Part shown: piece after piece, positions 13,575 through 46,121 of the stretch
Layout of the letters: each line of letters begins with the position of its first letter
Numbering within the stretch: position 1 is the stretch's first letter
Assembly: GCF_039655775.1 (NCBI RefSeq)
Contig: NZ_JBBYXJ010000002.1
Location: 496,001 to 560,000, forward strand
Origin: Iodidimonas sp. SYSU 1G8
GTDB taxonomy: Bacteria; Pseudomonadota; Alphaproteobacteria; SMXS01
Length of the DNA: 64,000 nucleotides
Direction of reading: 5' to 3'
The notes under the pieces: model-generated
Seen by the model: the letters and a program-made list of their open reading frames with translations, nothing else
Told to the model about the DNA's origin: nothing
The model's database searches: none
Translations under genes and position numbers: made by a program

Positions 13575-13618
13575 TTCTTTGGGCGACAGTGCCGACCTGC
13601 TTCCGGCGAGGGGCCGCG

Positions 13619-13971: not shown

Positions 13972-13989
13972 CCGGCAGGCCGCGTCGGA

Positions 13990-14814
13990 TCAGCCGCGCT
14001 TGCCGGCTTCGCGCAGGATGGTCGGCTCCTGGCTGTGGAATGCCGGATTGCCCGCGCCGGTGGTCGCGCCGGCGTCGACGGCCAGCGTCTGTCCGGTGAC
14101 ATAGCGGGCCTCGTCGCTGGCCAGATAGAGCAGCGCGTTGGCGATATCGACCGGATAGGCGGCGATGCCCAGCGGCGAGGAGGCCTTGAACGCCGCGGCG
14201 GTCTTTTCCTCGTCGTTGACGTCACCGGTGACGGCGCTCGCGGTCATTGGCGTGACGGTGCCGGCCGGCGCCACGGCGTTGACCCTGATCCCGTGCTGGG
14301 CCAGCTCCGACGCGACCGATTTGGTCAGACCGACCACGCCATGCTTGGCGGCGGTGTAGGCATGCGGGCCAAGACCGCCCAGGATGCCGGCGGTGCTGGC
14401 GAGGGACAGGATGACGCCGCTGCGGCGCGGCTGCATCACCCGGGCGCCGTGTTTCATGCCGAGGAAGACACCGCGCAGCAGCACGGCGATGGTGCTGTCC
14501 CACGCGTCGACCGACGTCTTCGCGATGGGCCCGATGGCGCCGACGATGCCGGCATTGTTGACCATGATGTCGAGCTGGCCGAATTCGGCCACGGCCAGAT
14601 CGACGGCGGCGGCGACATCGACCTCGCTGGTCACGTCGGTGCGGATGAACCGCGCCCGGTCGCCGAACTCCTCGGCCGCCTTGCGGCCGATGTCGGCCTG
14701 CAGGTCCGCCAGCACGAGGCGCGCGCCTTCCTCGGCGAAGCGCCGCGCCGTGCCCAGTCCGATGCCGCTCGCGCCGCCGGTGATGACGGCAATCTTGCCT
14801 TCCAGTCTCGCCAT
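13990..14814 (-). CDS. SDR family NAD(P)-dependent oxidoreductase
   Basis: A 274-residue classical short-chain dehydrogenase. It carries the nucleotide-binding TGGASGIG near residue 13, the NNAG motif (MVNNAGIVG), a catalytic Ser in LSLASTAG, and YTAAKHG as the YxxxK active site. The cofactor loop DLQAD after the second strand has an acidic residue, which usually favours NAD(H). The late sequence YVTGQTLAVDAGAT is typical of the fabG-like C-terminus. It is convergent with the rhodanese remnant and divergent from the thioesterase gene. The substrate is unknown. Confidence 0.9.
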   Translation of the reverse strand: MARLEGKIAVITGGASGIGLGTARRFAEEGARLVLADLQADIGRKAAEEFGDRARFIRTDVTSEVDVAAAVDLAVAEFGQLDIMVNNAGIVGAIGPIAKTSVDAWDSTIAVLLRGVFLGMKHGARVMQPRRSGVILSLASTAGILGGLGPHAYTAAKHGVVGLTKSVASELAQHGIRVNAVAPAGTVTPMTASAVTGDVNDEEKTAAAFKASSPLGIAAYPVDIANALLYLASDEARYVTGQTLAVDAGATTGAGNPAFHSQEPTILREAGKRG

Positions 14815-15005
14815 GTTCTTTCCCCTGTTTGGTGGTTCCGCGTGATCCTAGAGGCGATCGTTCGGCGAGGGAATCGGAGAACGATTTTTTCAGCGGTGGC
14901 GGCGCGCGGCGTCCCGCACTGCAAGAAAAGCACTGGATTTCCCTTCGCGTCCGCGTCAGAAAACTCCCGCGCCGGAGTCCCCTTCACCGGCCTGCGAGGA
15001 ATGCC

Positions 15006-15824
15006 ATGAGCCCGATCAAGGCTGAAGATTTTCTGGGGCTGCGCCCCACCCACAATCCGCACCGCTGGATATTGCCAGTGACCGAGGCGGTGTCGACGCC
15101 CGGCAACTTCCTGTTCGGGGGCTGCGGCCTCGCCGCGGCGATTTCGGCCATGGAGCAGACCTGCGGCCGCCCCACCGTCTGGGCCACGGCGCAATATCTG
15201 TCCTATGCCCGGCCACCATCCATCATGGATCTGGACGTCATCGTGCCGGTCAGCGGCAAGCAGAATACCCAGGCGCGCGTTGTGGCCCATGTGGGGGATA
15301 CGGAAATCCTCACCGTGAACGCGGCGCTGGGCGCGCGCGCCATGGATATCAGCGGTCAATGGACGCAGCGTCCCGACGTCGCGCGGCCCGAGGACTGCGA
15401 AGTGGTGCCGCGCTGGTCGAAGAAGGAGGGCTACATCGACGGCCGTGTGGAATTTCGCGCCGCCAAGGGGCGCTGGGGCCAGCACGACAATGGCGAGCCC
15501 GGCGATGGGCGTTCCATCCTGTGGGCCCGGATTTCCGAAGGCGCCGAAATAAGCGCCGCCATGCTGGCCGTGATCGCCGACTGGATGCCCTCGGGCATCA
15601 GCGGCGCGCTTGGGCGCCGGGGCGGCGGCAACAGCCTGGACAACACCATCCGGGTGCACAAGCTGGTCCCCACCGAATGGGTGCTGTGCGACATCCAGGT
15701 GCACGGGGTGCATGGCGGGCATGGGCATGGGCGCATGCATTTGTGGAGCCAGGACGGGGTGTTGCTGGCGACGGCGAGCCAGTCCGTGATCCTGCGGCTC
15801 TGGGACGAGACCCCGAAGGGATAA
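15006..15824 (+). CDS. Acyl-CoA thioesterase, TesB-like double hotdog
   Basis: A 272-residue protein with the layout of a TesB/thioesterase-like superfamily double-hotdog enzyme: an N-terminal hotdog with GNFLFGGCGLAAAISAMEQ (central hotdog helix) and a C-terminal hotdog with SLDNTIRVHKLVPTEWVLCD and GRMHLWSQDGVLLATASQS. The latter ends on the typical strand with Gln/Ser used by TesB-type enzymes. Such enzymes hydrolyse acyl-CoA in the cytoplasm. The ATG at 15006 is preceded by GAGGA. The open frame continues upstream to 14829 but without domain content, so I rejected the longer form. Confidence 0.75.
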   Translation: MSPIKAEDFLGLRPTHNPHRWILPVTEAVSTPGNFLFGGCGLAAAISAMEQTCGRPTVWATAQYLSYARPPSIMDLDVIVPVSGKQNTQARVVAHVGDTEILTVNAALGARAMDISGQWTQRPDVARPEDCEVVPRWSKKEGYIDGRVEFRAAKGRWGQHDNGEPGDGRSILWARISEGAEISAAMLAVIADWMPSGISGALGRRGGGNSLDNTIRVHKLVPTEWVLCDIQVHGVHGGHGHGRMHLWSQDGVLLATASQSVILRLWDETPKG

Positions 15825-15849
15825 AATCCCGCCATGCCTGAACTGCGTA

Positions 15850-15884
15850 TTGTAAGCGGTCACCCGTAAGTTTTAACATACGGG
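15850..15884 (+). promoter_or_regulatory. Possible promoter with overlapping inverted repeat upstream of the TonB receptor
   Basis: TTGTAA at 15850-15855 and TAACAT at 15874-15879 are 18 bases apart and could be -35/-10 elements. The -10 is straddled by an inverted repeat, CCCGTA (15863-15868) and TACGGG (15879-15884) with 10 bases between. That is a reasonable operator site for the receptor gene starting at 15967. The divergence from consensus makes this tentative. Confidence 0.35.
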
Positions 15885-15966
15885 ATGTAACCGATGGGCT
15901 GGGGGAACGCCTTCGGGTCAGGCTCTTGCGTTAGATTATTCTGAATCCGGCACGGAGGCGAAGGCC

Positions 15967-18300
15967 ATGGTGACGCACGCCACCGCTCTGCGGACGGCCG
16001 TCGCCTCGATCTGTCTGCTGACAGCAGGCAACTGGACTGGGACAGCGAACGCGCAGGCCGCCGACGCAGCAGACCCGCGACCGGCGCTGACCGGTATCGA
16101 ACAGGTCATCACCAGCGCCCGTCGCCGCGAGGAAACGGTGCAACAGGTGCCGGGGACGGTCTCGGTCCTGCCCGAGGACACACTGCGCAAGCTCGGCGTC
16201 GAAAGCCTCGACGACCTGTCGGCCATCGCGCCCAATCTGATCGTCGCGCCCGACAACGTCTCGAGCCGGACCTCGCGCATTACCCTGCGTTCTCAGGTGC
16301 AGAACGACACGCTGATCACGCTCGATCCCGCGGTTGGCCTCTACCTCGACGGCGTCTATGTGGCACGCAGCGCTGGCGCGTTGTTCGATCTGGTGGACGT
16401 GGAACGGGTCGAGGTGCTGAACGGACCGCAAGGCACGCTCTATGGCCGCAACACCACCGGCGGCGCCATCGGCATCGTCTCGCGCAAGCCCACCGATGAA
16501 TTCGAGGGCCGCGTGAGCGCCGGCGTCGGCCTGTATACGGACGGGCCGGGTCGCCATAACGGCCTCAATCACGATCTGGCCGCGATCCTCAACGTTCCGG
16601 TGTCGGACAAGCTGGCCGCGCGTTTCGTGCTGCAATCCACCGGCCTTGCCGGTTACAGCGAAAACACGCTGCTCGGCATCGACATGGATAATGACCGGAC
16701 CTTGTCGTGGCGCGCCAGCGTGTCGTGGCGGCCCAGTGACCATGTCGACGTCCTGCTGATCCATGACGGCATGCGCTCGCGCGGCAACGAACGTCTGTCG
16801 CAGGTCTCGCAGGTCGTGCCCGCCGGCCTCGATCCGGCCTGCAACCCGCTCGATCCCGATCCGGTGGCCTCGGCCGCCTGCGCCGCCAACCTGCTCCTGA
16901 CCGGCGGGCAATGGGCAGGCGCCTTCGACGGCGATCCCCGCCGTAACGAGCAGAACGTGCTGGCGCTGACCGGCGAGCCCGGACGGCTGGCCGCCGACGC
17001 CCACGGCGTGGCGCTGATCACGACCGCGCGGTTCGACGGCGTGACGCTGAAGAACATTTCGGCGTGGCGCCGCATGGACCAGTTCAGTTCCTTCGACTTC
17101 GACGGGACCGGATTCGACCTTGGCGAAGCGGTCCAGACCGACCGGCAGAACCAGCTGTCCACCGAATTCCAGGCGCTTGGCGACACGGGCAAGTCGATCG
17201 AATGGCTGGCCGGGCTGATGCTGCTGCGCGAGAGCGGCCGCACGGACAACACCGCCCGCGCCTTGTCCTTCCTGAATCCGACGAACCCGTTCAGCGCCAC
17301 GGGGCGCGGGGTGAACGCGGCGGCCGGGATTTACGGCCATGCCGTCTGGCATCTGAACGAGGTCGTCTCGCTGGTGGCCGGTGCGCGCTACACGTGGGAG
17401 CGCAAGGAACTCACCGCCGACAGCACCAACGCCCTGGTCGGCTGCCTCGTCCCTGACGCGTTGAACCTCGATCTGGAGACGGGCGGGTGCCGGGGCGAGT
17501 TCGGCAAGAATTTCGCGCGCCTGACCTGGGAAGCCGGCGTCAACGCGCAGGTGACCCCCGATACGCTGCTCTTCGCCAAGCTCGCGACCGGCTTCAAGAG
17601 CGGCGGCTTCAACCTGCGGGCCAATGCGGTCAAGGCGTTCGAGCCGTTCAAGCCGGAACGGGTGCTCAGCGTCGAAACGGGCGTGAAGACCGCCATCCTG
17701 GGCAATCGCGGCCACGCGAATCTGACGGCGTTCTATGCGGATTATACCAATATCCAGCGGACCGATTTCACCATCGAAGGCGGCAACCTGACCACCTTCA
17801 TCGCCAACGCGGCCAGCGCCGGCATCTGGGGCGGCGAACTGGAGGTCGACGTGGCGGCCACGGACGCGCTTCGCCTGCGCGGCACGCTGGGCGTCTCCGT
17901 CGCCCGTTACCGCGCGTTCGATTTCGGCGGCGCGGATTTCTCGGACAAGCGCTTCCCGCTGGCCCCGGACTATTCGGCGGCCGTCGCGGTCATCTACACC
18001 CTGCCGGTCGATTGGCTGGACGCGGACTGGACCGTGACGGGGGACTTCACCTGGCGCGCCAAGGCCTATGGGGATGTGGCCAACACGGCGAGCCTGATGC
18101 AACCGGCTTATGGACTGCTCGACCTGCGGCTCGACATCGAACCGCGCGACACGCGGGTTCGGCTGGCGCTGTTCTGCAAGAACGTCACCGACAAGGCGTA
18201 CCGGGTGACCGGAACCACCTTCCTCGACCAGTTGGGCTGGGCGTTCAACCAGTACGGCGAGCCGCGCCGCGTTGGACTCCAGGTCGATATGGACCTGTAG
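15967..18300 (+). CDS. TonB-dependent outer-membrane receptor
   Basis: A 777-residue protein with an N-terminal signal peptide (residues 1 to about 30) and a TonB-box-like VITSARRREETVQQVPGTVS. The plug domain has the signatures PAVGLYLDGVYVARSAG and VDVERVEVLNGPQGTLYGRN TTGG. A 22-strand-type barrel follows, ending in the family C-terminal block (NQYGEPRRVGLQVDMDL). The plug resembles the large group of receptors for hydrophobic or organic substrates expanded in alphaproteobacteria such as sphingomonads, rather than a classic siderophore receptor. The substrate is not determinable. A MarR regulator follows 89 bases downstream on the same strand. Confidence 0.93.
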   Translation: MVTHATALRTAVASICLLTAGNWTGTANAQAADAADPRPALTGIEQVITSARRREETVQQVPGTVSVLPEDTLRKLGVESLDDLSAIAPNLIVAPDNVSSRTSRITLRSQVQNDTLITLDPAVGLYLDGVYVARSAGALFDLVDVERVEVLNGPQGTLYGRNTTGGAIGIVSRKPTDEFEGRVSAGVGLYTDGPGRHNGLNHDLAAILNVPVSDKLAARFVLQSTGLAGYSENTLLGIDMDNDRTLSWRASVSWRPSDHVDVLLIHDGMRSRGNERLSQVSQVVPAGLDPACNPLDPDPVASAACAANLLLTGGQWAGAFDGDPRRNEQNVLALTGEPGRLAADAHGVALITTARFDGVTLKNISAWRRMDQFSSFDFDGTGFDLGEAVQTDRQNQLSTEFQALGDTGKSIEWLAGLMLLRESGRTDNTARALSFLNPTNPFSATGRGVNAAAGIYGHAVWHLNEVVSLVAGARYTWERKELTADSTNALVGCLVPDALNLDLETGGCRGEFGKNFARLTWEAGVNAQVTPDTLLFAKLATGFKSGGFNLRANAVKAFEPFKPERVLSVETGVKTAILGNRGHANLTAFYADYTNIQRTDFTIEGGNLTTFIANAASAGIWGGELEVDVAATDALRLRGTLGVSVARYRAFDFGGADFSDKRFPLAPDYSAAVAVIYTLPVDWLDADWTVTGDFTWRAKAYGDVANTASLMQPAYGLLDLRLDIEPRDTRVRLALFCKNVTDKAYRVTGTTFLDQLGWAFNQYGEPRRVGLQVDMDL

Positions 18301-30826: not shown

Positions 30827-31036
30827 TCACGCGAGCTGCAGGTTGCAGGCCGAATTCTTGCCGCTTTTCTTGTCACGCTCCAGGTCGAACGCCAGCTTCT
30901 GGCCTTCGTCGAGGCTGGAGTGACCCGCGCGCTCGACGGCCGAGATGTGCACGAACACATCGGTGCTGCCATCGTCCGGCTGGATGAAACCAAAGCCCTT
31001 CTGGGCGTTGAACCACTTCACGGTTCCTTGAGTCAT
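30827..31036 (-). CDS. Cold-shock protein, CspA family (divergent copy)
   Basis: A 69-residue cold-shock domain with RNP1 KGFGFIQP and RNP2 VFVHIS, starting [10 protein letters not shown]. It differs from the other two Csp proteins in the window in its C-terminal third ([20 protein letters not shown]). AAGGA precedes the ATG. It acts as an RNA chaperone in the cytoplasm. The upstream region is AT-rich and long, as is common for cold-regulated csp leaders, with a perfect operator-like palindrome 30 bases before the start. Confidence 0.95.
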
Positions 31037-31419
31037 AGTACGTTCCTTGTAGAATATAATCATCAACCGGAACTGTTCCGGTCGAACCAAATTTCGATGT
31101 GGAGAGGAGGCAGGGCGGCGCTTGTAAAAGCGTCCAAAAAGCACCCGTACCAGAGCGAATTCTGATAGCGGATAAATAGTGCGGATTTCGGGTTAATACA
31201 AGGATATTGTGAATTTATTCTTGCGGGCACGGCCGCGCACATTAAAACGTGGCAAAATAAATGCTTCTACCCATATAATAAGGACTGGTTCGAGCGCGGC
31301 GTTGGTCGTCCGTCCAGTCTGATTGGCGGTTGCGCGAAAGTATGACGGCCACGATTTCAGGGGCGACGATGCCCCGGCGACGGGCGGCGATTTCCGCCCC
31401 TCCCAAGGAAAGCGAGCCT
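31037..31419. promoter_or_regulatory. Divergent intergenic region with palindrome and AT-rich segment
   Basis: This 383-base gap separates the minus-strand csp from the plus-strand small gene at 31420. It holds a perfect 17-base palindrome, ACCGGAAC-T-GTTCCGGT at 31066-31082, in the csp leader. A conspicuously AT-rich stretch from about 31165 to 31290 probably carries promoters for one or both directions. I cannot fix -35/-10 boxes with confidence, and I see no convincing gene within it. Confidence 0.5.
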
Positions 31420-34638: not shown

Positions 34639-34848
34639 TCAGGCGTTCTTCAGATTTTCCGCGGAAGTCTTGCCGCGCTTGGGATCGCGCTGCTCTTCGT
34701 AGGAAATCTTCTGGCCCTCGTTCAGGGTGCCCAGACCGGCGCGCTCGACGGCCGAAATGTGAACGAAAACGTCCTGGCCGCCGCTATCCGGCTGAATGAA
34801 ACCAAAACCCTTGGTGCTGTTGAACCACTTAACGGTGCCGACCGGCAT
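34639..34848 (-). CDS. Cold-shock protein, CspA family
   Basis: A 69-residue cold-shock domain starting [20 protein letters not shown] with VFVHIS and the tail [20 protein letters not shown]. It differs from the copy at 44443 at only six positions I can count. TTGGAG precedes the ATG. It is an RNA-binding chaperone. The 180-base gap upstream towards the MEMO gene must hold its promoter and leader. Confidence 0.96.
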
Positions 34849-35028
34849 GATGTATCTCCAAGTTCCAAAAAGCGCGCTCACGGAATGATGAGCGCATAAA
34901 CCTGCCCTTTGGAACGGCAGCAATCTACACACGGTTTTGGCGCGATAGGCCGCCAAACCGCAGTGGCGTGGTCGCGGATACCATAGGGTATTCCGCCAGG
35001 AACGCAAGAAGAAGCTTCGGCGCCGGGT

Positions 35029-36420
35029 TCAGGCGCGACCGGACATGGTGAACGATCGCGAAAAAGTCTCGGTGCTGAAGCGGTTGGCGCGGAAACCGTC
35101 CGACCAGTGATCGGCGGCCAGACCCGCTTTCCGTTTAAGCTGCGAGAGGAAATCACGAGCGTGGGGCAGTGTCTGCCAGACCTTGGGCAGGAACAGGGCG
35201 CGGCGATCTCCATCGGCGATGACCAGACCGTCCCGGTCGGGGCGCAGCGCGTTCAACAGGGCCTGTTCGCCGTCGAAGGGAATCGGGCGCTGCTGGCTGA
35301 GAATGGACACCTCCACATCCAGCCGCTCCAGTTCGGTCGCGGTCAGCGGCTTGAACCGGGGATCGGCGAAGGCGGCCTTGTAGGCATTCTCCATGACGTC
35401 CAGCACCAGAGACCGGTGAGGTGTCACCGATCCGATGCAACCCCGCAACTGGCCGTCCAGGGTCAGGGTCACGAAGGTGGCGCGCATGGCGAGCAGCGCC
35501 CGAGGCATGTTCTTCAGGGTGATCGCCGGCATCTTGCCGTGCTGGATGCCATAACGGATCGCGGTCACCGCCGCGTCCAGCAACAGGCGCCGGTGCGGTT
35601 CGGCCAGCCGCGCCGATTCGGCATATTCGAACGCGAAGCTGCCATAGCCGACGACTCGGTCCCTGTTGCCGGCCGTATCCCCGGAGTTACGCAGGTCCAG
35701 CGTCGTGGCCCGCAGGTCGCGCCGCTGGGCTTCCAGCAACAGTCCGCGCAGCGGCCGGTTGCCGCAGGCCTGTTCGTCGCGCAGCAGGTCGGGCCGCAGC
35801 ATCTCGATGGCGCGCGCCGCATCGCCGTCCAGCGTGCCGGCGGTATCGTAATCATGGAAATGGCTCAGATCGGACGAGATGACGATCAGCGTCTCGGGAC
35901 CGCCCCAGCATTCGGACAGTACACGGGCCACGGTCTGCGGCGCGGCGTCGCCCACCAGCACCGGCACCAGGGTGAACTGGCCGAGCACCGTCTGCAGGAA
36001 CGGCAGGTGGACTTCCAGGCTGTGCTCCTGGGCGAAAGGCGCATCGGCGACGACTGAGTCGGGCAGCGCGCGAAGGCGCGCCATGGTTTCCATATCCACG
36101 GGAATCTCGCCCAGCGGCGTCGCCCAGCTTCGGGCGGTCGAGAGGGCGATGCCGCGAAAGCCGACCCTGTGGTTCGGCCCCAGCAGCACGACGCGGGTGA
36201 TCACGGCGCGGCGGGCGCGCAGCGTGGCATAGGCGGTGGCGGCGACGGTGCCTGAATAGATGTATCCCGCATGAGGCACGACCAGCACCTTGGCCGCCAC
36301 CGATGCCGGCAAGGCGGCGTTGAGGCACGCGTTGACCTGGGCGGCGCAGGCCGCACGGTCGGCGGGATAGAACATCCCGGCGACTCCCGGCTGCTTGACG
36401 AGGCTGGCGTCGACGCTCAT
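35029..36420 (-). CDS. AmmeMemoRadiSam system fusion: MEMO domain plus AMMECR1 domain
   Basis: A 463-residue two-domain protein. Residues 1 to about 270 are a MEMO domain related to class III extradiol dioxygenases: VVPHAGYIYSG (His50), LGPNHRVGFRG (His84) and ISSDLSHFHDYDTA (His187/His189). Residues about 275-463 are an AMMECR1 domain with the invariant LRGCIGS at 325-331. In many bacteria these are separate 'system protein B' and 'A'; here they are fused. It is divergent from the radical SAM member with 41 bases between starts. The reaction of this system is not established to my knowledge. Confidence 0.93.
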   Translation of the reverse strand: MSVDASLVKQPGVAGMFYPADRAACAAQVNACLNAALPASVAAKVLVVPHAGYIYSGTVAATAYATLRARRAVITRVVLLGPNHRVGFRGIALSTARSWATPLGEIPVDMETMARLRALPDSVVADAPFAQEHSLEVHLPFLQTVLGQFTLVPVLVGDAAPQTVARVLSECWGGPETLIVISSDLSHFHDYDTAGTLDGDAARAIEMLRPDLLRDEQACGNRPLRGLLLEAQRRDLRATTLDLRNSGDTAGNRDRVVGYGSFAFEYAESARLAEPHRRLLLDAAVTAIRYGIQHGKMPAITLKNMPRALLAMRATFVTLTLDGQLRGCIGSVTPHRSLVLDVMENAYKAAFADPRFKPLTATELERLDVEVSILSQQRPIPFDGEQALLNALRPDRDGLVIADGDRRALFLPKVWQTLPHARDFLSQLKRKAGLAADHWSDGFRANRFSTETFSRSFTMSGRA

Positions 36421-36461
36421 GTGCGGTTCCCAATGATTGTCCTCGGGCCTAGGATAAGCCG

Positions 36462-37574
36462 ATGACGAGCGCAGTCCAGACGGCAAACGCGACCGGCCAT
36501 CCGACCCGCTACTGGCATGCGCTGGATGACGGGCGGGTGCAGTGCGATCTGTGTCCGCGCGCCTGCAAGCTGGCGGAGGGACAGGCGGGTCTGTGCTTCG
36601 TGCGCGCCGCGCGGGGCGGCGCGGTGGTGCTCGACACCTATGGCCGCTCGTCCGGCTTCATGATCGATCCGATCGAGAAGAAGCCGCTGAACCATTTCCT
36701 GCCCGGCACGCCGGTCCTGTCATTCGGGACGGCGGGCTGCAATCTGGCCTGCACCTTCTGCCAGAACTGGGACATCTCGAAATCGCGCGAGACCGACACG
36801 CTGTCGGCGGTGGCGTCGCCCGAGGCCATCGCCCGCGCCGCGCGCGCCACCGGCTGCCGGTCCGTCGCCTTCACCTACAACGATCCGGTGATCTTTCACG
36901 AATACGCCATCGACATCGCCCAGGCCTGCCACGAGGTCGGGGTCAAGGCGGTCGCCGTGACCGCCGGTTACGTCATGCCGGCGCCCCGGGCCGAGTTCTA
37001 CCGCCACATGGACGCGGCGAACGTGGACCTGAAGGCCTTCAGCGAGGATTTCTACTGGCGCGTCACGAAGGGACATCTGCAGCCGGTGCTGGAGACGCTG
37101 GAATATCTCAAGCGGGAAACCGATGTCTGGTTCGAGATCACGACCCTGCTGATCCCCGGCGAGAACGATTCGGACGCCGAGTTGCACGCCATGACCCAAT
37201 GGATCATGGACAGGCTGGGGCCGGATGTGCCGCTGCACTTCACCGCGTTCCATCCCGACTACCGCATGCGCGACAAGGCGCGCACGCCGCATGGCTCGCT
37301 GATCCGGGCCCAGCGCATCGCCCACGCCAACGGGATTCGCCATGCCTATGTGGGCAACGTCCATGATCTGGGGCGCCAGAGCACCCATTGCCCCTGCTGC
37401 GGCGAGCGGGTGATCGGACGCGACTGGCACCAGCTTTCCGACTGGCGCCTCGATGCATCGGGCCAGTGCGGCAATTGCGGCACCGCCATCGCGGGCGTGT
37501 TCGAGGCGCGGCCGGGTGTCTGGGGCCGCAAACGGCAGGCGGTGGACGTATCCCGGTACGCCCTCACCGTCTGA
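36462..37574 (+). CDS. AmmeMemoRadiSam system radical SAM enzyme
   Basis: A 370-residue radical SAM protein of the PflA-like AmmeMemoRadiSam family. The cluster motif is CNLACTFC (Cys93, Cys97, Cys100). Extra cysteines occur at the N-terminus (CDLCPRAC, likely metal site). A C-terminal zinc-ribbon-like segment carries CPCCGE and CGNCGT. The body contains ITTLLIPGENDSDAELHAM, typical of pyruvate-formate-lyase-activase relatives. It is paired head to head with the MEMO-AMMECR1 fusion, so all three parts of the system are here. The substrate is unknown. Confidence 0.93.
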   Translation: MTSAVQTANATGHPTRYWHALDDGRVQCDLCPRACKLAEGQAGLCFVRAARGGAVVLDTYGRSSGFMIDPIEKKPLNHFLPGTPVLSFGTAGCNLACTFCQNWDISKSRETDTLSAVASPEAIARAARATGCRSVAFTYNDPVIFHEYAIDIAQACHEVGVKAVAVTAGYVMPAPRAEFYRHMDAANVDLKAFSEDFYWRVTKGHLQPVLETLEYLKRETDVWFEITTLLIPGENDSDAELHAMTQWIMDRLGPDVPLHFTAFHPDYRMRDKARTPHGSLIRAQRIAHANGIRHAYVGNVHDLGRQSTHCPCCGERVIGRDWHQLSDWRLDASGQCGNCGTAIAGVFEARPGVWGRKRQAVDVSRYALTV

Positions 37575-37902
37575 GCGACGCGCGCCGGAGACGTGATTGT
37601 CCTCCGCGTTCCCGACTCGGGCATGAAAGGCTCTGGGGTAAGAGTAATCAGCCAAGGAGACGCTTTTGGTTCCGTCCATGCGGACAAGAAGTCATCTTGT
37701 GGTTTTGATCGATTACTCTTGGGGCATTTGCATAGGAATTGACCATAAAAATAAATCTCCGTGGACGATTCCATATTATTTTCCGGTTGTCTCTGCCGCC
37801 AGTGATGAGCGTGATTGACGCCGGCACCAAAGCTCTGGAATTCTTGTCGCATTGGAGCGAGCGAGGGCCGCGCCGCTCTCCAGTCTGACAAGGGACTGCG
37901 CG
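37575..37902. promoter_or_regulatory. AT-rich leader with nested inverted repeats upstream of the permease operon
   Basis: No gene is visible here. AAGAGTAATC at 37640-37649 is repeated inverted at 37711-37720 (GATTACTCTT). Between them lie CCAA/TTGG (37652-37669), GTCC-ATGC-GGAC (37674-37685) and ACAAGA-N5-TCTTGT (37684-37700). Downstream, GGAATTGACCA and TGGACGATTCC (about 37735-37772) pair with one wobble and one mismatch. The result could be a structured RNA leader or a set of regulator sites. The start of the permease gene is about 130 bases further on. I cannot name a known riboswitch class. Confidence 0.45.
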
Positions 37903-39402
37903 ATGAGCGATATCAAGGGAACGCATGGCGTCTCCTACAAGGCGGTCGACGACCAATATTTCCAGAAGCGCGGCCTGCGGCGATATGCGGGCGTGTTTTC
38001 ACTGTGGGCACTTGGCGTCGGCGCCGTGATCTCCGGTGATTTCTCGGGCTGGAACTTCGGTCTGGGGTTCGGATGGGGCTCCATGTTCGTGGCCGCGATC
38101 ATCATCACGGTGATGTATCTGGGGCTGACCTATTCCATCGCCGAAATGTCGCCGGCCCTGCCGCATACGGGCGGCGCCTATTCCTTCGCGCGGTCGGCCA
38201 TGGGGCCCTGGGGCGGGTTCGTGACCGGCATCGCCGAGAATATCGAGTACATCCTGACGCCCGCCGTCATCGTCTTCTTCATCGGCTCGTATGTGGGCGC
38301 GATCCTGGGCACGGATGCCGCCATCCAGCCCCTCTACTGGGTGATCGGTTATCTGGTCTTTCTGGGCCTGAACCTGTTCGGCGTCGAGTTGTCCTTCAGG
38401 GTCACGGTCGTCGTCACGCTGGTCGCGCTCGCCGTGCTGGCGGTGTTTTTCGTGAGCGCCATCCCCAGCATCGACTTCAGCCGCTGGGCGCTGAATATCG
38501 GGGTCGGCCCGGATGGTACGATGGTGGCGTTGCCCGAGGGCGGCGGCCCCTGGTTTCCCGATGGCGTGCACGGCGTGCTTGGCGCGCTGCCTTTCGCGGT
38601 CTGGCTGTTCCTTGCCATCGAACAGTTGCCGCTGGCCGCCGAGGAAGCGGTCGATCCCAAGCGCGACATGCCCAGGGGCATCCTGCTGGGCATCTTCACC
38701 CTGATCTTCACCGGTTTCGGCGTGCTGTTCTTCAACGCCAGCATCGGACCGGGATCCTGGGGGCTGAAGGAGTCGGGCGAGCCGCTGCTGGACGGTTTTC
38801 GCACCATCTACGGCACGGACATCGCCAATCTGCTGTCGCTGGCGGCCATTCTCGGTCTGATCGCGTCGTTCCACGCGATCATGTACGCCTTCGGCCGGCA
38901 GATCTATTCGCTGTCGCGCGCCGGCTATTTTCCGCGCGGTCTTTCCATCACCCATGGCACCCACAAGACACCCTATCTGGCGCTGATCTTCGGCAGCCTG
39001 GTCGGCCTGGGCGTGATGCTGGTGATCTGGTTCCTCTACGGGGCCGAGACCGGCGGCGCCTTCATCGGCGCGGCCCTGCTGAACATGGCCGTGTTCGGCG
39101 CCATGCTGTCCTATGTCTATCAGGGCATTTCCTTCATCCTGCTGCGGATCAACATGCCGCATATCGAGCGGCCGTTCCGCAGTCCGTTCGGCATTCCCGG
39201 CGCGCTCGCCACCATCCTCATCGGCCTGGTCACGATCTATTTCCAGATCACCGATCCGGCGTTCCGCGCGCCGGTCATCGCCGTGGCGATCTACTATGCG
39301 GTCATGATCCTCTACTTCGCCCTGATCGGGCGTCATCACCTGGTGCTCTCGCCCGAGGAGGAATTCGCCATGACCAAGGGTGCGTCGGGCGGCGCGCACT
39401 GA
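37903..39402 (+). CDS. APC family amino acid/amine permease, ethanolamine-permease-like
   Basis: A 499-residue membrane protein with about 12 transmembrane helices. The start MSDIKGTHGVSYKAVDDQYF and the first helix region ALGVGAVISGDFSGWNFGLG match the ethanolamine permease (Eat) branch of the amino acid-polyamine-organocation superfamily. The G-x-x-S/G-x-D-x-x-G-W text replaces the GSGIF of amino acid importers. Later GRQIYSLSRAGYFPRGLS is the conserved cytoplasmic loop. AAGGGA lies before the ATG. It heads the operon with ligase, aldehyde and alcohol dehydrogenases and hydrolase, so it likely imports their substrate, an amino alcohol or amine. Confidence 0.85.
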   Translation: MSDIKGTHGVSYKAVDDQYFQKRGLRRYAGVFSLWALGVGAVISGDFSGWNFGLGFGWGSMFVAAIIITVMYLGLTYSIAEMSPALPHTGGAYSFARSAMGPWGGFVTGIAENIEYILTPAVIVFFIGSYVGAILGTDAAIQPLYWVIGYLVFLGLNLFGVELSFRVTVVVTLVALAVLAVFFVSAIPSIDFSRWALNIGVGPDGTMVALPEGGGPWFPDGVHGVLGALPFAVWLFLAIEQLPLAAEEAVDPKRDMPRGILLGIFTLIFTGFGVLFFNASIGPGSWGLKESGEPLLDGFRTIYGTDIANLLSLAAILGLIASFHAIMYAFGRQIYSLSRAGYFPRGLSITHGTHKTPYLALIFGSLVGLGVMLVIWFLYGAETGGAFIGAALLNMAVFGAMLSYVYQGISFILLRINMPHIERPFRSPFGIPGALATILIGLVTIYFQITDPAFRAPVIAVAIYYAVMILYFALIGRHHLVLSPEEEFAMTKGASGGAH

Positions 39403-39463
39403 TAGGCTTTCGATGCCGGGCAGGTTCTCTCGCGCCGGCTTCCTGTCTCCGGATGGTGCCGTC

Positions 39464-40831
39464 ATGGACCCAAGACACGTCAGAACCGCCGCCGATGCGC
39501 GGGCCATTGTCGAGCACCGCGGTCTCGATCATGTCAAGATCGGCGTCTTCGACATCGACGGCATCATGCGCGGCAAGTACATGGCGCGGGACAAGTTCTT
39601 CGCCGCGCTCGAATCCGGTTTCGGCTTCTGCGACGTGGTGCTGGGCTGGGACAGCAACGACCAGCTCTATGACAACGTCAAGGTGACCGGCTGGCATACC
39701 GCGTATCCGGACGCCATGGTCCGCATTCTGCCCGAGACGTGCCGCGCGGTGCCGTTCGAAGGCGACATGCTGCTGTTCCTGGCCGAGTTCACCGGCGAGG
39801 CCGAGGCGGTCTGCCCGCGCGGCGTGCTCCGCCGGGTGCTCAAGCGCGCGGCCGACATGGGGTACAAGGTCGAGGCGGCCGCCGAATTCGAATTCTTCAT
39901 GTTCGAGGAGACGCCCCATTCGGTGCGCGCGAAAAGTTACCGCGACCTGAAGAACGTCACGCCGGGCTTCTTCGGCTACTCCATGCTGCGCAATTCGGTG
40001 CACGCCGAATTCTACAAGGAGTTGCTGGACCTTGGCGCCGGCATGGATTTCCCCATCGAGAGCCTGCACACCGAGACCGGCCCCGGGGTGATCGAGGCCG
40101 CCATCGTCCATGACGAGGCGCTCGCCGCCGCCGACAAGGCGGCGCTGTTCAAGACCTTCACCAAGATCATGGCGCAGCGGCGGGGCTGGATGGCCACCTT
40201 CATGGCCAAATGGTCGCCCGACTGGCCTGGCCAGAGCGGCCATCTGCACATGTCGCTGTCGGCCGGGGATGGCGGTTCGGTGTTTTTCGACGCCGCCGCG
40301 CCCCACACCATGTCCGATACCATGCGCTGGTTCGTCGGCGGCCAGCAGCACTTGATGCCCGAGCTTCTGTCCATGATCGCCTGCACGGTCAACAGCTACA
40401 CCCGGCTCATACCCGGATTCTGGGCGCCGACCGAGGCCAACTGGGGCGTCGAGAACCGCACCTGCGCGCTGCGGATCATCTCCGGCTCGCCCAAGAGCCA
40501 GCGGATCGAGTACCGGATCGCGGCGGCCGACATCAATCCCTACATCGCCCTCGCCTGCGCCATCGGCTCCGGGCTCTGGGGCATCGAGCACCGGCTCGAT
40601 CCAGGCGATCCGGTGCCGGGCAACGCCTATGCCATGGCGTTCCCGCCCGAGCGCGGCCTGCCCCGCACCTTGTCCGAAGCGGCGGGCCGGCTGCTGGAAT
40701 CGGCAGCCGCCCGCGACCTGTTCGGCGACGCCTTCGTCGATCACTACGCGGCCACGCGGGACTGGGAAGAGCGCGAGTTCCGCAAGGCGGTGACCGACTG
40801 GGAACTGGCGCGCTATTTCGAGATCATCTGA
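39464..40831 (+). CDS. Glutamine synthetase family protein, probable gamma-glutamyl-amine ligase
   Basis: A 455-residue glutamine-synthetase-fold enzyme. Visible are AAAEFEFFMFEE (metal-binding ExE), SLHTETGPGVIEAA, QSGHLHMSLS (the HxH equivalent of NGSGMHxH), IPGFWAPTEANWGVENRTCA LR and EYRIAAADINPYIALACAI. The text is closer to PuuA/GlnA4-type ligases than to the housekeeping GlnA, and it has no adenylylation-loop signature. It would join glutamate to an amine with ATP. Its stop overlaps the ALDH start (TGATG). The ATG at 39464 suits the domain; an upstream ATG at 39413 is possible. Confidence 0.85.
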   Translation: MDPRHVRTAADARAIVEHRGLDHVKIGVFDIDGIMRGKYMARDKFFAALESGFGFCDVVLGWDSNDQLYDNVKVTGWHTAYPDAMVRILPETCRAVPFEGDMLLFLAEFTGEAEAVCPRGVLRRVLKRAADMGYKVEAAAEFEFFMFEETPHSVRAKSYRDLKNVTPGFFGYSMLRNSVHAEFYKELLDLGAGMDFPIESLHTETGPGVIEAAIVHDEALAAADKAALFKTFTKIMAQRRGWMATFMAKWSPDWPGQSGHLHMSLSAGDGGSVFFDAAAPHTMSDTMRWFVGGQQHLMPELLSMIACTVNSYTRLIPGFWAPTEANWGVENRTCALRIISGSPKSQRIEYRIAAADINPYIALACAIGSGLWGIEHRLDPGDPVPGNAYAMAFPPERGLPRTLSEAAGRLLESAAARDLFGDAFVDHYAATRDWEEREFRKAVTDWELARYFEII

Positions 40832-42225
40832 TGCGCCCGATCCTGCAATGCATCAGCCCCGTCGACGGGCGCGTCTATGTGGAACGGCCGCTCGCCGACC
40901 GGCAGGCGATCGACATGGCTTTGGATCGCGCCGCGGGTGCCTTGCGCGGCTGGAAGACGGCCACGCTGGTCGAGCGTCAGGCGGTCCTCTCCCGCGCGGT
41001 GGATGGCGTCGTGGCGCACGGGGCGGCCATCGCCGAGGAACTGACCTGGATGATGGGCCGCCCCATCGCCCAGACGCCCGGCGAAGTCCGGGGATTCGAG
41101 GAAAGGGCGCGCTACATGATCGGCGCCGCCACCCAGGCGCTGGCGCCGCTGGACCCGGGGCCGAAGGAGGGCTACAGGCGTTATGTCCACCACGAGCCGC
41201 TGGGTGTGGTGGTGGTCGTGGCGCCGTGGAACTATCCCTACCTGACGGCGGTCAACGCCGTCATCCCGGCGCTCGCGGCGGGCAACGCCGTCATCCTCAA
41301 GCATTCGCACCAGACGCCGCTCTGCGCCGAACGTCTTTCCGGGGCCTTTCGCGCGGCCGGTTTGCCCGACGGTGTCTTCCAGCACCTGCATCTCGGCCAC
41401 GAGGACACCGCGCTGCTGATCGGTGACGGGCGGGTCGGCGGGGTGTGCTTCACCGGTTCGGTCGAGGGCGGTCACGCGGTCCAGCAGGCGCTGGCCGGCA
41501 AGTTCGTCGCGGCCGGACTGGAACTGGGGGGCAAGGATCCGGCCTATGTCCGCGCCGACGCCGACCTGGCCCACGCCGTCGAGACTCTGGTCGATGGCGC
41601 CATGTTCAATTCCGGCCAGAGCTGCTGCGGCATCGAGCGCATCTATGTCCATGAGCGGCTGTACGACGACTTCGTCGCCGGGGCGCTCGAGCTGACCCGG
41701 TCCTATGTGCTGGGCGATCCGACCCGGCCCGAGACCACGCTGGGCCCCATGGTGCGGAGCTCCGCGGCGGCTTTCGTCCGGGGGCAGGTCGCCGAAGCGG
41801 TCCGTCAGGGCGCCGCCGCGTTGCTGGACCCGGCGCATTTTCCCGCCGATGCCGCTGGAACGCCCTATCTGGCGCCCCAAATCCTGGTCAATGTGGATCA
41901 TTCCATGCGGATCATGACCGAGGAAACTTTTGGCCCCGCCGTCGGCATCATGAAGGTGACCTCCGACGAACAGGCCATCCGGCTGATGAATGACAGCGCC
42001 TACGGGCTGACCGCCGCGATCTGGACCGCTGATGTGGGGGCGGCCGAGCGCATCGGCCACCATCTGGAGACCGGCACCGTGTTCATGAACCGCTGCGACT
42101 ATCTGGATCCCGCCCTGGCCTGGACCGGGGTCAAGAACAGCGGCCGGGGCTGCAGCCTGTCCGTTCTGGGCTATCAATACCTGACCCGTCCGAAATCCTT
42201 CCATCTGCGCACACGCACGCGCTGA
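40831..42225 (+). CDS. NAD-dependent aldehyde dehydrogenase
   Basis: A 464-residue ALDH: NAD site APWNYPYLTAVNAVIPALAA, VCFTGSVEGG, catalytic Glu231 in LELGGKDP and nucleophile Cys265 in FNSGQSCCGIER, then EETFGPAVGIMK. At 464 residues it is on the short side but complete. It begins at the overlapping ATG in the ligase stop. In context it would oxidise a gamma-glutamyl-amino-aldehyde to the acid, the role PuuC plays in putrescine use. Confidence 0.93.
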   Translation: MRPILQCISPVDGRVYVERPLADRQAIDMALDRAAGALRGWKTATLVERQAVLSRAVDGVVAHGAAIAEELTWMMGRPIAQTPGEVRGFEERARYMIGAATQALAPLDPGPKEGYRRYVHHEPLGVVVVVAPWNYPYLTAVNAVIPALAAGNAVILKHSHQTPLCAERLSGAFRAAGLPDGVFQHLHLGHEDTALLIGDGRVGGVCFTGSVEGGHAVQQALAGKFVAAGLELGGKDPAYVRADADLAHAVETLVDGAMFNSGQSCCGIERIYVHERLYDDFVAGALELTRSYVLGDPTRPETTLGPMVRSSAAAFVRGQVAEAVRQGAAALLDPAHFPADAAGTPYLAPQILVNVDHSMRIMTEETFGPAVGIMKVTSDEQAIRLMNDSAYGLTAAIWTADVGAAERIGHHLETGTVFMNRCDYLDPALAWTGVKNSGRGCSLSVLGYQYLTRPKSFHLRTRTR

Positions 42226-42244
42226 TCTCACCAGGGTAGCCTTC

Positions 42245-43420
42245 ATGACCGTGCTGACCGCCGCCTGGAATTATCCGACCCGTATCCTGCACGGGCCGGG
42301 CCGCATCGCCGAACTGGCCCAGGCCTGCCGGACACTGGGAATCTCCCGGCCGCTGCTGGTGACGGATGCCGGCCTGAGGGAGGCGGCGATCACCCGCGAG
42401 GCCCTGGCCGCCCTGGCGGCCGATGGCATGGATGTGTCCGTGTTCGCCGAGGTCAAGCCCAACCCCGTGGGCGCCAATATCGAGGCGGGCGTCGCCGCCT
42501 ACAAGGCGGGCGGTCATGACGGGGTGATCGCCTTCGGCGGCGGATCGGGTCTCGACGCCGGCAAGGCCATTGCGTTTATGAGCGGCCAGACCCGGCCGAT
42601 CTGGGATTTCGAGGATATCGGCGACTGGTACACCCGTGCCGATCCGGCAGGCATCGCACCCATCGTCGCCGTGCCGACCACGGCCGGCACCGGCTCGGAA
42701 GTCGGCCGTGCCTCGGTCGTGGTGAACGAGGAAACGCACGAGAAGAAGATCATCTTCCATCCCCGGATCATGCCGGGCATCGTGATCGCCGATCCCGCGC
42801 TGACGGTCGGGCTGCCGCCGCATGTCACCGCCGCCACCGGCATGGACGCCTTCACCCATTGCTTCGAAGCCTACTGCGCGCCGGGCTTTCATCCCCAGGC
42901 CGACGGCATCGCGCTCGAAGGCATGCGGCTGATTCGGGACTACCTGCCGCGCGCCTATCGTGACGGCGGCGATATGGAAGCCCGCTCGCGCATGCTGGCG
43001 GCGGCCTCCATGGGCGCGGCGGCGTTCCAGAAGGGGCTCGGCGCGGTGCACGCCGTCTCGCATCCGGTCGGCGCGCTCTACGACACGCATCATGGGCTGA
43101 CCAACGCGATCGTGCTGCCCTACGTGATGGTCCACAACCGCGCCGCCATCGACGACAGGATGCGCCATCTCGGCCGCGTCCTGGATCTCGCCGCGCCGGG
43201 CTTCGACGGCGTGCTCGAGGCGGTGCTCGACATGCGCGCGGCGCTGGGCATCCCGCATGGGCTGGACGCGATCGGGGTCGACGATGAACGCGCGGCCGAG
43301 ATCGGCCGGTTCGCCGAGGCCGATCCGTCCGCCGGCGGCAATCCGGTCGCGGTCAAGGCGCCGGCCCTTGAGCGCATCTTCCGCGCCGCCGTGGCCGGAT
43401 CCCTCGGCGACGCGGCGTGA
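42245..43420 (+). CDS. Iron-containing alcohol dehydrogenase
   Basis: A 391-residue group III (FucO/AdhB-like) dehydrogenase. It has the NAD site GGGSGLDAGKAIA and PTTAGTGSEVGRASVV, and the divalent-metal ligands appear as Asp201, His205, His269 and His283 (TGMDAFTHCFEAY; LGAVHAVSHP; THHG). It would oxidise a primary alcohol to the aldehyde handed to the upstream ALDH. It sits between ALDH (19 bases) and hydrolase (1 base). Its presence suggests the operon's substrate carries an alcohol group, unlike putrescine. Confidence 0.94.
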   Translation: MTVLTAAWNYPTRILHGPGRIAELAQACRTLGISRPLLVTDAGLREAAITREALAALAADGMDVSVFAEVKPNPVGANIEAGVAAYKAGGHDGVIAFGGGSGLDAGKAIAFMSGQTRPIWDFEDIGDWYTRADPAGIAPIVAVPTTAGTGSEVGRASVVVNEETHEKKIIFHPRIMPGIVIADPALTVGLPPHVTAATGMDAFTHCFEAYCAPGFHPQADGIALEGMRLIRDYLPRAYRDGGDMEARSRMLAAASMGAAAFQKGLGAVHAVSHPVGALYDTHHGLTNAIVLPYVMVHNRAAIDDRMRHLGRVLDLAAPGFDGVLEAVLDMRAALGIPHGLDAIGVDDERAAEIGRFAEADPSAGGNPVAVKAPALERIFRAAVAGSLGDAA

Positions 43421-43421
43421 G

Positions 43422-44255
43422 ATGACCCGCGTTCTGATCGTCGAGGGCAACACCGCCGAGGCACGCGACCGGTCGGTCGCCGCCGGGGGCACGGTGGCCA
43501 ACCAGCTCTATGCCGCCGCGCTGCGCCGCGTGCGCGGCGATCTGTCCCTGGAGGTCGTATTTCCGGCCGATTCGGGCGCCGTTCTGCCCGACTCCGCGGC
43601 CTTGCGCGGCTTTGACGGCATCGCGTGGACCGGCTCCTCGCTCAACATCTATCATGGCGGCCCCGAGATCGAGCGTCAGCTCGCCTTCTGCCGCACCTGC
43701 TTCGCCGCCGGCGTGCCCCAGTTCGGCAGCTGCTGGGGGCTTCAGGTCGGCGCCGTGGCGGCTGGCGGCACGGTCGAGGCCAATCCGCTGGGGCGCGAGA
43801 TCGGCCTGGCCCGAAAGATCGTCCTGACCGGGGCGGGGCGCGTTCACCCCTTGTATCGCGGCCGTCCCGATGCGTTCGACGCCATCGCGGTGCACCGGGA
43901 TATCGTGACCGCGCTGCCGGAGGGCGCCCAGATCCTGGCCCATAACGCCATGGCCCATGTCCAGGCCGCCGCCTTCAGCCGCGACGGCGGGGTTTTCTGG
44001 GGGGTCCAGTACCATCCCGAGTACACATTCACCGAGATCGCCGCGTCCATGCGACGCTATACGGAGGGGCTGGTCGCAGAAGGTCTCTTCGACAGTGTTG
44101 AGTCGGCGCGGTCCGCCGCGCAAGTGTTCGCGTCGTTCGACCAAGGCGGCGCACCGGAAAACCGCTGGCTGGCGGGTATCGATGGGGATGTGCTCGACCC
44201 GGCGGAAAGACTACGGGATCTGCGTAACTGGCTGGATTTCATTTCGGGCATATAA
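43422..44255 (+). CDS. Class I glutamine amidotransferase-like protein, probable gamma-glutamyl hydrolase
   Basis: A 277-residue single-domain class I amidotransferase fold with nucleophile Cys104 (GSCWGLQ) and the His198/Glu200 pair (GVQYHPE). It has no synthetase partner domain, so it probably hydrolyses a gamma-glutamyl amide, as PuuD does. It is the last gene of the operon, 1 base after the dehydrogenase. It ends close to a third cold-shock gene, with a hydrophobic 46-codon frame directly overlapping its stop. Confidence 0.82.
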   Translation: MTRVLIVEGNTAEARDRSVAAGGTVANQLYAAALRRVRGDLSLEVVFPADSGAVLPDSAALRGFDGIAWTGSSLNIYHGGPEIERQLAFCRTCFAAGVPQFGSCWGLQVGAVAAGGTVEANPLGREIGLARKIVLTGAGRVHPLYRGRPDAFDAIAVHRDIVTALPEGAQILAHNAMAHVQAAAFSRDGGVFWGVQYHPEYTFTEIAASMRRYTEGLVAEGLFDSVESARSAAQVFASFDQGGAPENRWLAGIDGDVLDPAERLRDLRNWLDFISGI

Positions 44256-44442
44256 TGATGGTGGGTTTGCGTGCAACGCACTTCCTGCTTGCGTTGTTGC
44301 CCTTTGCTTTTATCCTTGTGGCGTCATGCTGCTGCGGTTTGCCGGCCCGTCTCGCCACCCGGGATAGATTGCTGCCAATCCAAGGTACAGGTTGATGCGC
44401 TGCTCATCCGATGCGGCGCCACACATTGATTGGAGAACAGCG

Positions 44443-44652
44443 ATGCCCGTCGGTACCGTGAAGTGGTTCAACAGCACTAAAGGTTATGGTTTCATTCAGC
44501 CGGACGCCGGTGGTCCGGATGTATTCGTGCATATCTCGGCCGTCGAGCGTGCCGGTCTTGGCAGCCTCAATGAAGGCCAGAAGATCTCTTACGAAGAGCA
44601 GCGCGATCCCAAGCGCGGCAAGACCTCGGCCGAAAACCTGAAGAAGGCCTGA
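44443..44652 (+). CDS. Cold-shock protein, CspA family
   Basis: A 69-residue cold-shock domain, [20 protein letters not shown] with VFVHIS, near-identical to the copy at 34639. Tyr replaces Phe in RNP1 (KGYGFIQP). TTGGAG stands before the ATG as in the other copy. It is an RNA chaperone. A strong terminator follows and is shared with the RND outer-membrane gene. Confidence 0.96.
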
Positions 44653-44676
44653 GCGGGTCTTCTATGGACTGAATTG

Positions 44677-44706
44677 AAAGGGCGCCGACGAGTCGGCGCC
44701 CTTTTT
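44677..44706. terminator. Bidirectional terminator between csp and the RND operon
   Basis: AAAGGGCGCCGA (44677-44688) pairs perfectly with TCGGCGCCCTTT (44693-44704) around CGAG and runs into T's. On the other strand it immediately follows the stop of the outer-membrane channel gene. Confidence 0.88.
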
Positions 44707-46121
44707 CATGGCGCGGGCGCCGGAACCGGCGTGCCGATGGCGCTGTGGAAGTCGATGATGGCCCGCGCGAGGTCGGCATCGGCCTCGACCAGCGCCTCGC
44801 GATTGGAAATCAGGGTGCGCTGGGCATCGAGAATATCGATGAAACTCGCCAGTCCTTCCTTGTACAGCGCGTTGGCCTGCTGAAACGCCGTATCGCTGGC
44901 CCGCGCCGCCTCGCGATAATCCTTCTGGCTCAGACGCGCGCTGCGGATCGCCACCAGCGCCGTCTCGGCGTCGCGCAGCGCCAGCAACAGCGTCTGCCGA
45001 TAGACCAGCAGCGCTTCCTGCGCCAGCGCCTCGGCGGTCCGAACCTGGGCGCGCCGTCCGCCGGCGTCGAACAGAGGAATATCCAGCGTTGCCGACAAAA
45101 GGCCGATCACCTGCTCGACCACCATGCCGCTGCCGATATCGGTGGCCTGGGCGGTCAGGCGGCCGGGCAGGCTGAGGCTCGGATACAGCGCCCCGGCGGC
45201 GACACCGATTTCGGCGGTGGCGCGCGCCAGGTTCGCTTCCGCCGCCGCCAGATCCGGGCGGCGGCGCAGAATGTCGCGCGGCGCGCCGGGCTCGGGGCCT
45301 CCCGCATACACCGGCACCCGCATCTCGCCCGGCAGCGCCGGTGCGGTCAGGCCCGGCGCGTCGCCCAGCAGCACGGCGACCGAGTTGCGGGCCGCTTCCA
45401 GCGACAATTCCAGCGGACCCTGGATCGCGCGGGTTTCCGCCACTTCGGCGGTCGCGCGGTTGACGTCCAGGTCGGCCGCAAGACCGGCTTCCTGCCGGCT
45501 GCGCACGATGTCGAGAGTCTGGTTCTGCAGCCCCAGGGACGTCTCGAGCAGCGCGAGCCGCGCACCCGCGCGCCGCGCTTCCACATATTGCCGGGCCACG
45601 TCCGCCACGGTCAGCCGCTGGATGTCGGCCACCAGCGCCGCGCGCCGCCGGGCTTCGGCCTGTGCCGCTTCCAGCGCCCGCGTCTGGGCGCCGAACAGGT
45701 CGGGCGTCCAGTTGAAGATCGCCGAACCGTCAGCCGATCCGGTGGTGGCGCGTCCCGCGTCGCCGCGACCGGCCAGAACACTGTCCAGACCGGCGCCCAC
45801 CTGCGCATCCAGGGTCGGGAAGCGGGCGGAATTGGCCACCCGTGCCTGCTCGCGGGCCTGCGCAAGACGCGCGGCGGCGGCGGCGACGTCCAGATTGTCG
45901 GCCAACGCGTCGGCGATCAGGCTGTCGAGCACCGGATCCTCGAAGCCGCGCCACCAGCCGTCCTCGCGCGCGACGGTCTGCCCCAGCGACGCGCGGGCGG
46001 GGCCGAACGCCTCGGGCGCCGCCAGCGCCGGCGGGGTATACTCTGGCCCCGCCTTGACGACGCAGCCGGCCAGCAGCACGCCGATGGACAACAGGCCGAG
46101 CGCCCGCGCCAGACCGGTCAT
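44706..46121 (-). CDS. RND efflux outer-membrane channel lipoprotein (NodT/OprM family)
   Basis: A 471-residue outer-membrane factor with signal peptide and lipobox LLAGC near residue 19, so it is lipid-anchored. Two repeated outer-membrane-efflux domains follow: ADALADNLDVAAAAARLAQAR and the matching LRRRPDLAAAEANLARATAE and LDAQRTLISNREALVEADAD. It forms the trimeric exit duct. It is the last gene of the operon and overlaps the RND pump gene by 4 bases. Confidence 0.94.
   Translation of the reverse strand: MTGLARALGLLSIGVLLAGCVVKAGPEYTPPALAAPEAFGPARASLGQTVAREDGWWRGFEDPVLDSLIADALADNLDVAAAAARLAQAREQARVANSARFPTLDAQVGAGLDSVLAGRGDAGRATTGSADGSAIFNWTPDLFGAQTRALEAAQAEARRRAALVADIQRLTVADVARQYVEARRAGARLALLETSLGLQNQTLDIVRSRQEAGLAADLDVNRATAEVAETRAIQGPLELSLEAARNSVAVLLGDAPGLTAPALPGEMRVPVYAGGPEPGAPRDILRRRPDLAAAEANLARATAEIGVAAGALYPSLSLPGRLTAQATDIGSGMVVEQVIGLLSATLDIPLFDAGGRRAQVRTAEALAQEALLVYRQTLLLALRDAETALVAIRSARLSQKDYREAARASDTAFQQANALYKEGLASFIDILDAQRTLISNREALVEADADLARAIIDFHSAIGTPVPAPAP

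Follow-up and report, generated by a model that had tools for sequence, protein, structure and literature searches.

An operon of Iodidimonas sp. SYSU 1G8 that probably serves ethanolamine catabolism by the known gamma-glutamylation route

Which substrate is handled by an operon that lines up a permease, a glutamine synthetase (GS)-like ligase, an aldehyde dehydrogenase (ALDH), an iron-containing alcohol dehydrogenase (ADH), and a hydrolase of the class I glutamine amidotransferase (GATase) fold, and is its pathway a new one? The question is raised by positions 37903-44255 of a 64,000-nucleotide stretch (hereafter, the window) from the alphaproteobacterium Iodidimonas sp. SYSU 1G8, which a preliminary description had read as a complete gamma-glutamylation route for an amino alcohol. 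Judged from sequence comparisons, the operon would serve the catabolism of ethanolamine, a component of common membrane lipids, by a gamma-glutamylation route that has already been published, with a probability of roughly 0.85, and the broader reading, gamma-glutamylation of a small amino alcohol, can be held with high confidence.

Gene content and the type of ligase

We identified five genes free of internal stops, all on the plus strand, with the following products and proposed roles.

37903-39402, plus strand: APC-superfamily permease, Eat-like, proposed ethanolamine importer (499 amino acids; Pfam AA_permease_2 PF13520 / PF00324)
39464-40831, plus strand: GS-like ligase, proposed ethanolamine gamma-glutamylase, that is, gamma-glutamylethanolamide synthetase (455 amino acids; Pfam Gln-synt_C PF00120)
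40831-42225, plus strand: ALDH, proposed gamma-glutamyl-aminoacetaldehyde dehydrogenase (464 amino acids; Pfam Aldedh PF00171)
42245-43420, plus strand: iron-containing ADH, proposed gamma-glutamylethanolamide dehydrogenase (391 amino acids; Pfam Fe-ADH PF00465 and ADH_Fe_C PF25137)
43422-44255, plus strand: class I GATase-fold hydrolase, proposed gamma-glutamylglycine hydrolase (277 amino acids; Pfam GATase PF00117, PF07722)

All five proteins scored above the curated Pfam cut-offs, and the genes are intact and lie in the places and the order given by the preliminary description. It had also reported overlaps between them; these came down to the ligase/ALDH junction, where base 40831 is common to the ligase stop and the ALDH start, the other junctions being gaps of 61 bases (permease-ligase), 19 bases (ALDH-ADH), and 1 base (ADH-hydrolase). 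The ligase-to-ALDH offset of 1367 was kept in each of the 6 further genomes of the genus. Every one of the nine catalytic residues listed beforehand was found in place, namely Glu231 and Cys265 of the ALDH, the metal-site residues Asp201, His205, His269, and His283 of the iron ADH, and Cys104, His198, and Glu200 of the hydrolase.

In the proposed route, for which we infer the substrate and every catalytic step, the permease would import ethanolamine, and the GS-like ligase would couple it to glutamate using ATP. The iron ADH would then convert the alcohol gamma-glutamylethanolamide to the aldehyde, the ALDH would convert the aldehyde to gamma-glutamylglycine, and the GATase-fold hydrolase would split gamma-glutamylglycine into glutamate and glycine, so that glutamate would be recycled and no free amino-aldehyde would be formed. 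The glycine-cleavage P-protein matched above its cut-off in the genome, which would therefore have an outlet for glycine. EutB of the ethanolamine ammonia-lyase (eut) pathway was not matched in the window's genome, in a search that matched E. coli alone among 14 control genomes.

Against the NCBIfam models, the ligase scored 219.7 bits for GlnA (cut-off 429.15), 190.7 bits for type III GS (cut-off 469.6), and 185.8 bits for the gamma-glutamylputrescine synthetase NF045547 (cut-off 650), in each case below the cut-off. The place of the GS flap residue Glu327 is taken by Trp in the window ligase (IPGFWAPT) and in 74 of 74 aligned rows of its clade. The genome has two further GS-family genes, whose products are 29 and 31% identical to the ligase over the matched parts, one with Glu and the other with Leu at this place. 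The residue is Tyr in PuuA and Trp in IpuC, and it is reported as Trp in PauA7 and Phe in GlnA4 (PMC6529630). Trp at the flap place thus speaks against ammonia as the substrate without singling out ethanolamine; because IpuC also has Trp, the residue would rule out a plain GS rather than prove ethanolamine. The IpuC-type isopropylamine route itself (Paenarthrobacter aurescens TC1, plasmid pTC1) was considered and rejected, since its ligase, likewise GS-like and with Trp at the Glu327 place, is 38% identical to that of the window and its neighbors, genes for a cytochrome P450, a ferredoxin, a ferredoxin reductase, and short-chain dehydrogenases/reductases (SDR), differ from those found here.

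The preliminary description had drawn a parallel with the Puu pathway of E. coli (puuP, puuA, puuD, puuR, puuC, puuB, puuE), and a Puu-type gamma-glutamylation of putrescine or polyamines would indeed share with the window the ligase-first logic and the common scheme of permease, ligase, ALDH, and class I amidotransferase-fold hydrolase. The parallel holds as an analogy only: the Puu substrate is putrescine, and the PuuB oxidase stands where the window has an ADH. Identity to the Puu counterparts is 28% for the ligase (with PuuA) and 33% for the ALDH, none of the five proteins matched the PuuB-type oxidase family in Pfam, and the alignment of the hydrolase with PuuD spans 37 residues only (E=0.002). 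An iron ADH, moreover, would imply an alcohol rather than a second amine in the substrate, and we consider a Puu-type function very improbable.

Conserved gene order with alternating importers and hydrolases

A contig scan with the ligase provided the comparative set, for which the best 80 of 177 relatives were retained as loci (L numbers). Neighbors were called by tblastn at E <= 1e-8 with few query proteins, Pfam being run on few neighbor genes and the remainder called by similarity; a neighbor scored as missing may be distant, and some contigs are short. Loci were counted per species record and are not independent, with 28 from Microvirga and 9 from Thalassospira.

An ALDH gene downstream of the ligase and an iron ADH gene near it, both on the ligase strand, were identified in 68 of the 80 loci. 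Seven of the 12 loci lacking one or the other end early (L005, L033, L037, L058, L066, L071, and L073), and five (L020, L030, L046, L078, and L083) extend well beyond the ligase, yet ALDH and/or iron ADH was not found in them. The five-gene order recurs in each of the 6 further genomes of the genus, whose ligases are 79-83% identical to that of the window. Given these two counts, the gene order exceeds chance. The exact five-gene order, which the preliminary description had proposed to look for elsewhere, was found in 8 of the 80 loci, five from the window's genus (L006, L007, L008, L015, and L026) together with L009, L011, and L013 from outside it, and this order recurs on a Photobacterium plasmid (L109), where the permease is 41% identical and the GATase more distant. 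As the ligase bears a Gln-synt_C domain, it could be taken for a GS that happens to lie beside unrelated oxidoreductases with no joint pathway. The company of ALDH and iron ADH in so many loci, and a flap Trp throughout the clade at a place where one of the genome's two other GS-family proteins retains Glu, leave this reading with hardly any probability.

The core is arranged differently in L014, L017, L018, and L019 (Kiloniellaceae, Denitrobaculum, and Pelagibius; about 8000-16300), where a PF05013-type hydrolase and the ligase are kept together and an SDR gene and others separate the ligase from an ALDH-ADH pair 2.5-3.3 kb beyond.

The best NCBIfam model for the permease was TIGR00908, "ethanolamine permease," at 354.8 bits with a cut-off of 381.75, and the protein is therefore called Eat-like here, not Eat. 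Its gene lies immediately upstream of the ligase in 37 of the 80 loci, 28 of these being from Microvirga. The gene for an EtoX-like binding protein of the tripartite ATP-independent periplasmic (TRAP) type was identified in 13 loci, upstream on the same strand in 11 and on the opposite strand in 2 (L023 and L083), and a second APC permease family was found upstream of the ligase in 7. The three importer classes never co-occurred in one locus, and 23 loci had no identified importer; homology between the permease and the second APC family means that one gene takes only one of these two labels, which leaves the mutual exclusion of permease and TRAP system unaffected.

The TRAP binding protein of a Thalassospira locus (L016) matched PDB 4UAB over 319 residues with E=4.7e-169, against 1.1e-15 for the match ranked second; the PDB comparison covers this protein alone, and the other 12 are 65-94% identical to it. 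PDB 4UAB is Csal_0678, whose structure was solved with ethanolamine (PMC12410723), and the Phaeobacter EtoX, a homologue of the 4UAB protein, is reported to bind ethanolamine with a Kd of 7.9 uM (PMC10132767). The ligases of L013, which has the permease, and of L041 and L051, which have TRAP systems, are 86.6, 87.4, and 88.5% identical to one another and form one tree group with support 100, those of L013 and L051 being 76.9 and 75.8% identical to the window ligase. All 13 ligases accompanied by EtoX-like TRAP systems are 68-76% identical to it. Because the permease and the EtoX-like TRAP system alternate beside ligases about 87% identical, and because the L016 binding protein matches 4UAB, the permease most likely imports ethanolamine. 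Orthology supports the Eat-like permease and the TRAP importer as serving the same ligase, and it predicts the substrate of the Eat-like permeases that stand beside this ligase in the 37 loci. A search of the window's genome for relatives of the TRAP ethanolamine-binding protein, made without a positive control, gave none.

The hydrolase genes alternate as well. A class I GATase gene was found downstream of the ligase in 24 of the 80 loci and a PF05013-type (formylglutamate-amidohydrolase-like) gene 0.7-3.2 kb upstream of it in 39, never together within the operon windows counted, and neither was found in 17; two of the loci with the GATase, L006 and L007, have in addition a PF05013-like gene beyond the operon, 6-7 kb upstream. 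On a tree of 78 rows, the importer and the hydrolase each switch at least 6 times, uncalled rows being left out. This tree omits 20 of the 28 Microvirga rows and five rows duplicating genomes that entered under another label; it came from a quick search and has long outer branches (PuuA, IpuC, two GS homologues, and several plasmid rows), and the inner clade alone was used. The window ligase falls into a group with those of its genus (support 92), amid rows that mix permease and TRAP neighbors. The plain reading of these patterns would be one conserved substrate served by exchangeable importers and hydrolases.

A further combination is found on plasmid pBVIE01 of Burkholderia vietnamiensis G4 (L104:4325-10883), which encodes an Na+/solute symporter, RpiR, the ligase, ALDH, and GATase, with no ADH, and adjoins an IS66 transposase; the symporter adds a fourth type of importer to those seen with such ligases.

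We also determined how widely the ligase occurs. Three genomes from other genera of the family contained distant GS-family genes only (best E 1.1e-29). In a sample of 385 genomes of the class, 57 had a ligase match at E <= 1e-190, among them that of the window and three others of the genus, so the ethanolamine gamma-glutamylation route may be common in the class. A ligase match at E <= 1e-60 came from 34 of 72,556 plasmid records, with 60-80% identity in 4 of these.

Described routes and the choice of amino alcohol

Proteins of an operon in Phaeobacter sp. MED193 rise on phosphorylethanolamine; this operon contains RpiR, a gamma-glutamylglycine amidohydrolase, the TRAP system EtoVWX, an ethanolamine gamma-glutamylase, an aldehyde-oxidizing enzyme, and a gamma-glutamylethanolamide dehydrogenase (PMC10132767). 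Its ligase, aldehyde-oxidizing, and alcohol-oxidizing genes, MED193_10046, 10051, and 10056, follow one another in the same order as in the window, and a gamma-glutamylglycine hydrolase is part of the operon, as is proposed for the window; unlike the window, it has the TRAP system instead of an APC permease and an RpiR regulator (PMC10132767). The same source places the pathway in Chromohalobacter salexigens and A. tumefaciens C58 as well, citing Vetting et al. 2015. For C. salexigens, the families PF00120, PF00465 (iron-dependent dehydrogenase), PF00171, and PF05013 are listed (PMC9397018 Table 2), the first three of which are also those of the window. The window is linked to the C. salexigens and Phaeobacter enzymes by families, gene order, PDB 4UAB, and the passages cited here, which do not state the Phaeobacter protein families.

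In Streptomyces coelicolor, GlnA4 is reported, from in vitro assay and deletion, to be a gamma-glutamylethanolamide synthetase, the later steps being proposed (PMC6529630), and related Streptomyces clusters include a putative ethanolamine transporter and an amidotransferase (PMC6529630 Fig. 2 legend). Taken together, SCO1610-1615 and the permease-bearing relatives resemble the window in clustering genes for the synthetase, an ALDH, a putative ethanolamine transporter, and a glutamine amidotransferase; they differ in the alcohol step, assigned to a short-chain dehydrogenase instead of an iron ADH, in the regulator EpuRI, and in a permease described as unlike EutH and Eat (PMC6529630).

The chemistry put forward for ethanolamine in the preliminary description, running through gamma-glutamylethanolamide, the aldehyde, and gamma-glutamylglycine to glutamate and glycine, agrees with this published scheme, and homology, gene order, and the permease/TRAP exchange support it. 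The suggestion that the full set in one operon with an Eat-like permease would be a distinct pathway has to be withdrawn, as a full set in one operon is already in print (PMC10132767; PMC9397018 Table 2; PMC6529630, clusters with a putative permease). The exact set of Eat-like permease, ligase, ALDH, iron ADH, and class I GATase was not found in the searches made, which covered an open-licence library, and the differences from the published operons would lie mainly in the importer and the final hydrolase. The described ethanolamine route would thereby be placed in another alphaproteobacterial genus.

Several observations count against the proposed ethanolamine operon. The permease falls 27 bits short of the TIGR00908 cut-off, the hydrolase belongs to PF00117 and that of C. 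salexigens is listed as PF05013, and no branch with support of 95 or more fixes the place of the window ligase in the tree. RpiR-like regulator genes, present somewhere in 46 of the 80 loci, are absent around the operon, and an HTH_6 (RpiR-type) protein was not found in the genome, in a search that matched 8 of 14 control genomes; with neither of them, no regulator is in sight. The status of the C. salexigens steps also varies in the passages cited, from in silico prediction (PMC6529630) and proposed (PMC9397018) to demonstrated (PMC10132767).

As the permease is not within the curated family of ethanolamine permeases and the genome yielded no RpiR-type protein, the ligase-ALDH-ADH core might in this genus have been redirected to another amino alcohol by a shift in ligase and permease specificity, with the chemistry unchanged; candidates would be 3-aminopropanol, giving beta-alanine, 1-amino-2-propanol, and alaninol. 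A change of substrate within the wider family is suggested by ligases about 55% identical to that of the window, which share their clusters with a polyamine-type ABC transporter and a class III aminotransferase. The TRAP-associated ligases are, however, far nearer to the window's than these, and the window sits amid the mixed permease and TRAP rows of the tree. For 3-aminopropanol, the second substrate named in the preliminary description, no pointer was found. A redirected core thus appears unlikely; if true, the core would more generally accept varied substrates, like a chassis into which importers and hydrolases can be plugged. Ethanolamine is accordingly retained as the probable substrate.

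The plasmid clusters of Rhodobacteraceae M382 (L105:4786-15007) and Pseudorhizobium flavum (L107:5525-13507) contain such ligases of about 55% identity, beside genes for a class III-type aminotransferase, a P1 peptidase, and a polyamine-type ABC transporter and with no annotated iron ADH, and they perhaps act on another amine.

Surroundings of the operon

We scanned positions 37400-44750 for transcription signals. The sigma-70-like promoter scan gave one site, within the hydrolase gene and at chance level, and the terminator scan gave nine terminator-like sites (3.9 expected), every one within genes. Sigma-54 boxes, searched in the whole window, matched 5 times with 11.3 expected, and none of the matches lies in 37575-37902. 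When the upstream regions of seven loci of the genus were aligned, they had TTGAC in common ahead of the permease start; the rows of the window and L114 were displaced by a wrong reading frame, and no conclusion is based on this alignment.

Upstream, the operon is flanked by a radical SAM gene (plus strand), which is overlapped by a Memo/AMMECR1 fusion gene on the minus strand; the two occupy 35029-37574 and form an AmmeMemoRadiSam-like pair. The downstream neighbor is a cold-shock gene, and no link to the pathway was seen on either side. Three cold-shock-domain-like genes lie within 14 kb, at 30827-31144, 34639-35007, and 44443-44652, the last of them identified by Pfam and the other two by eye.

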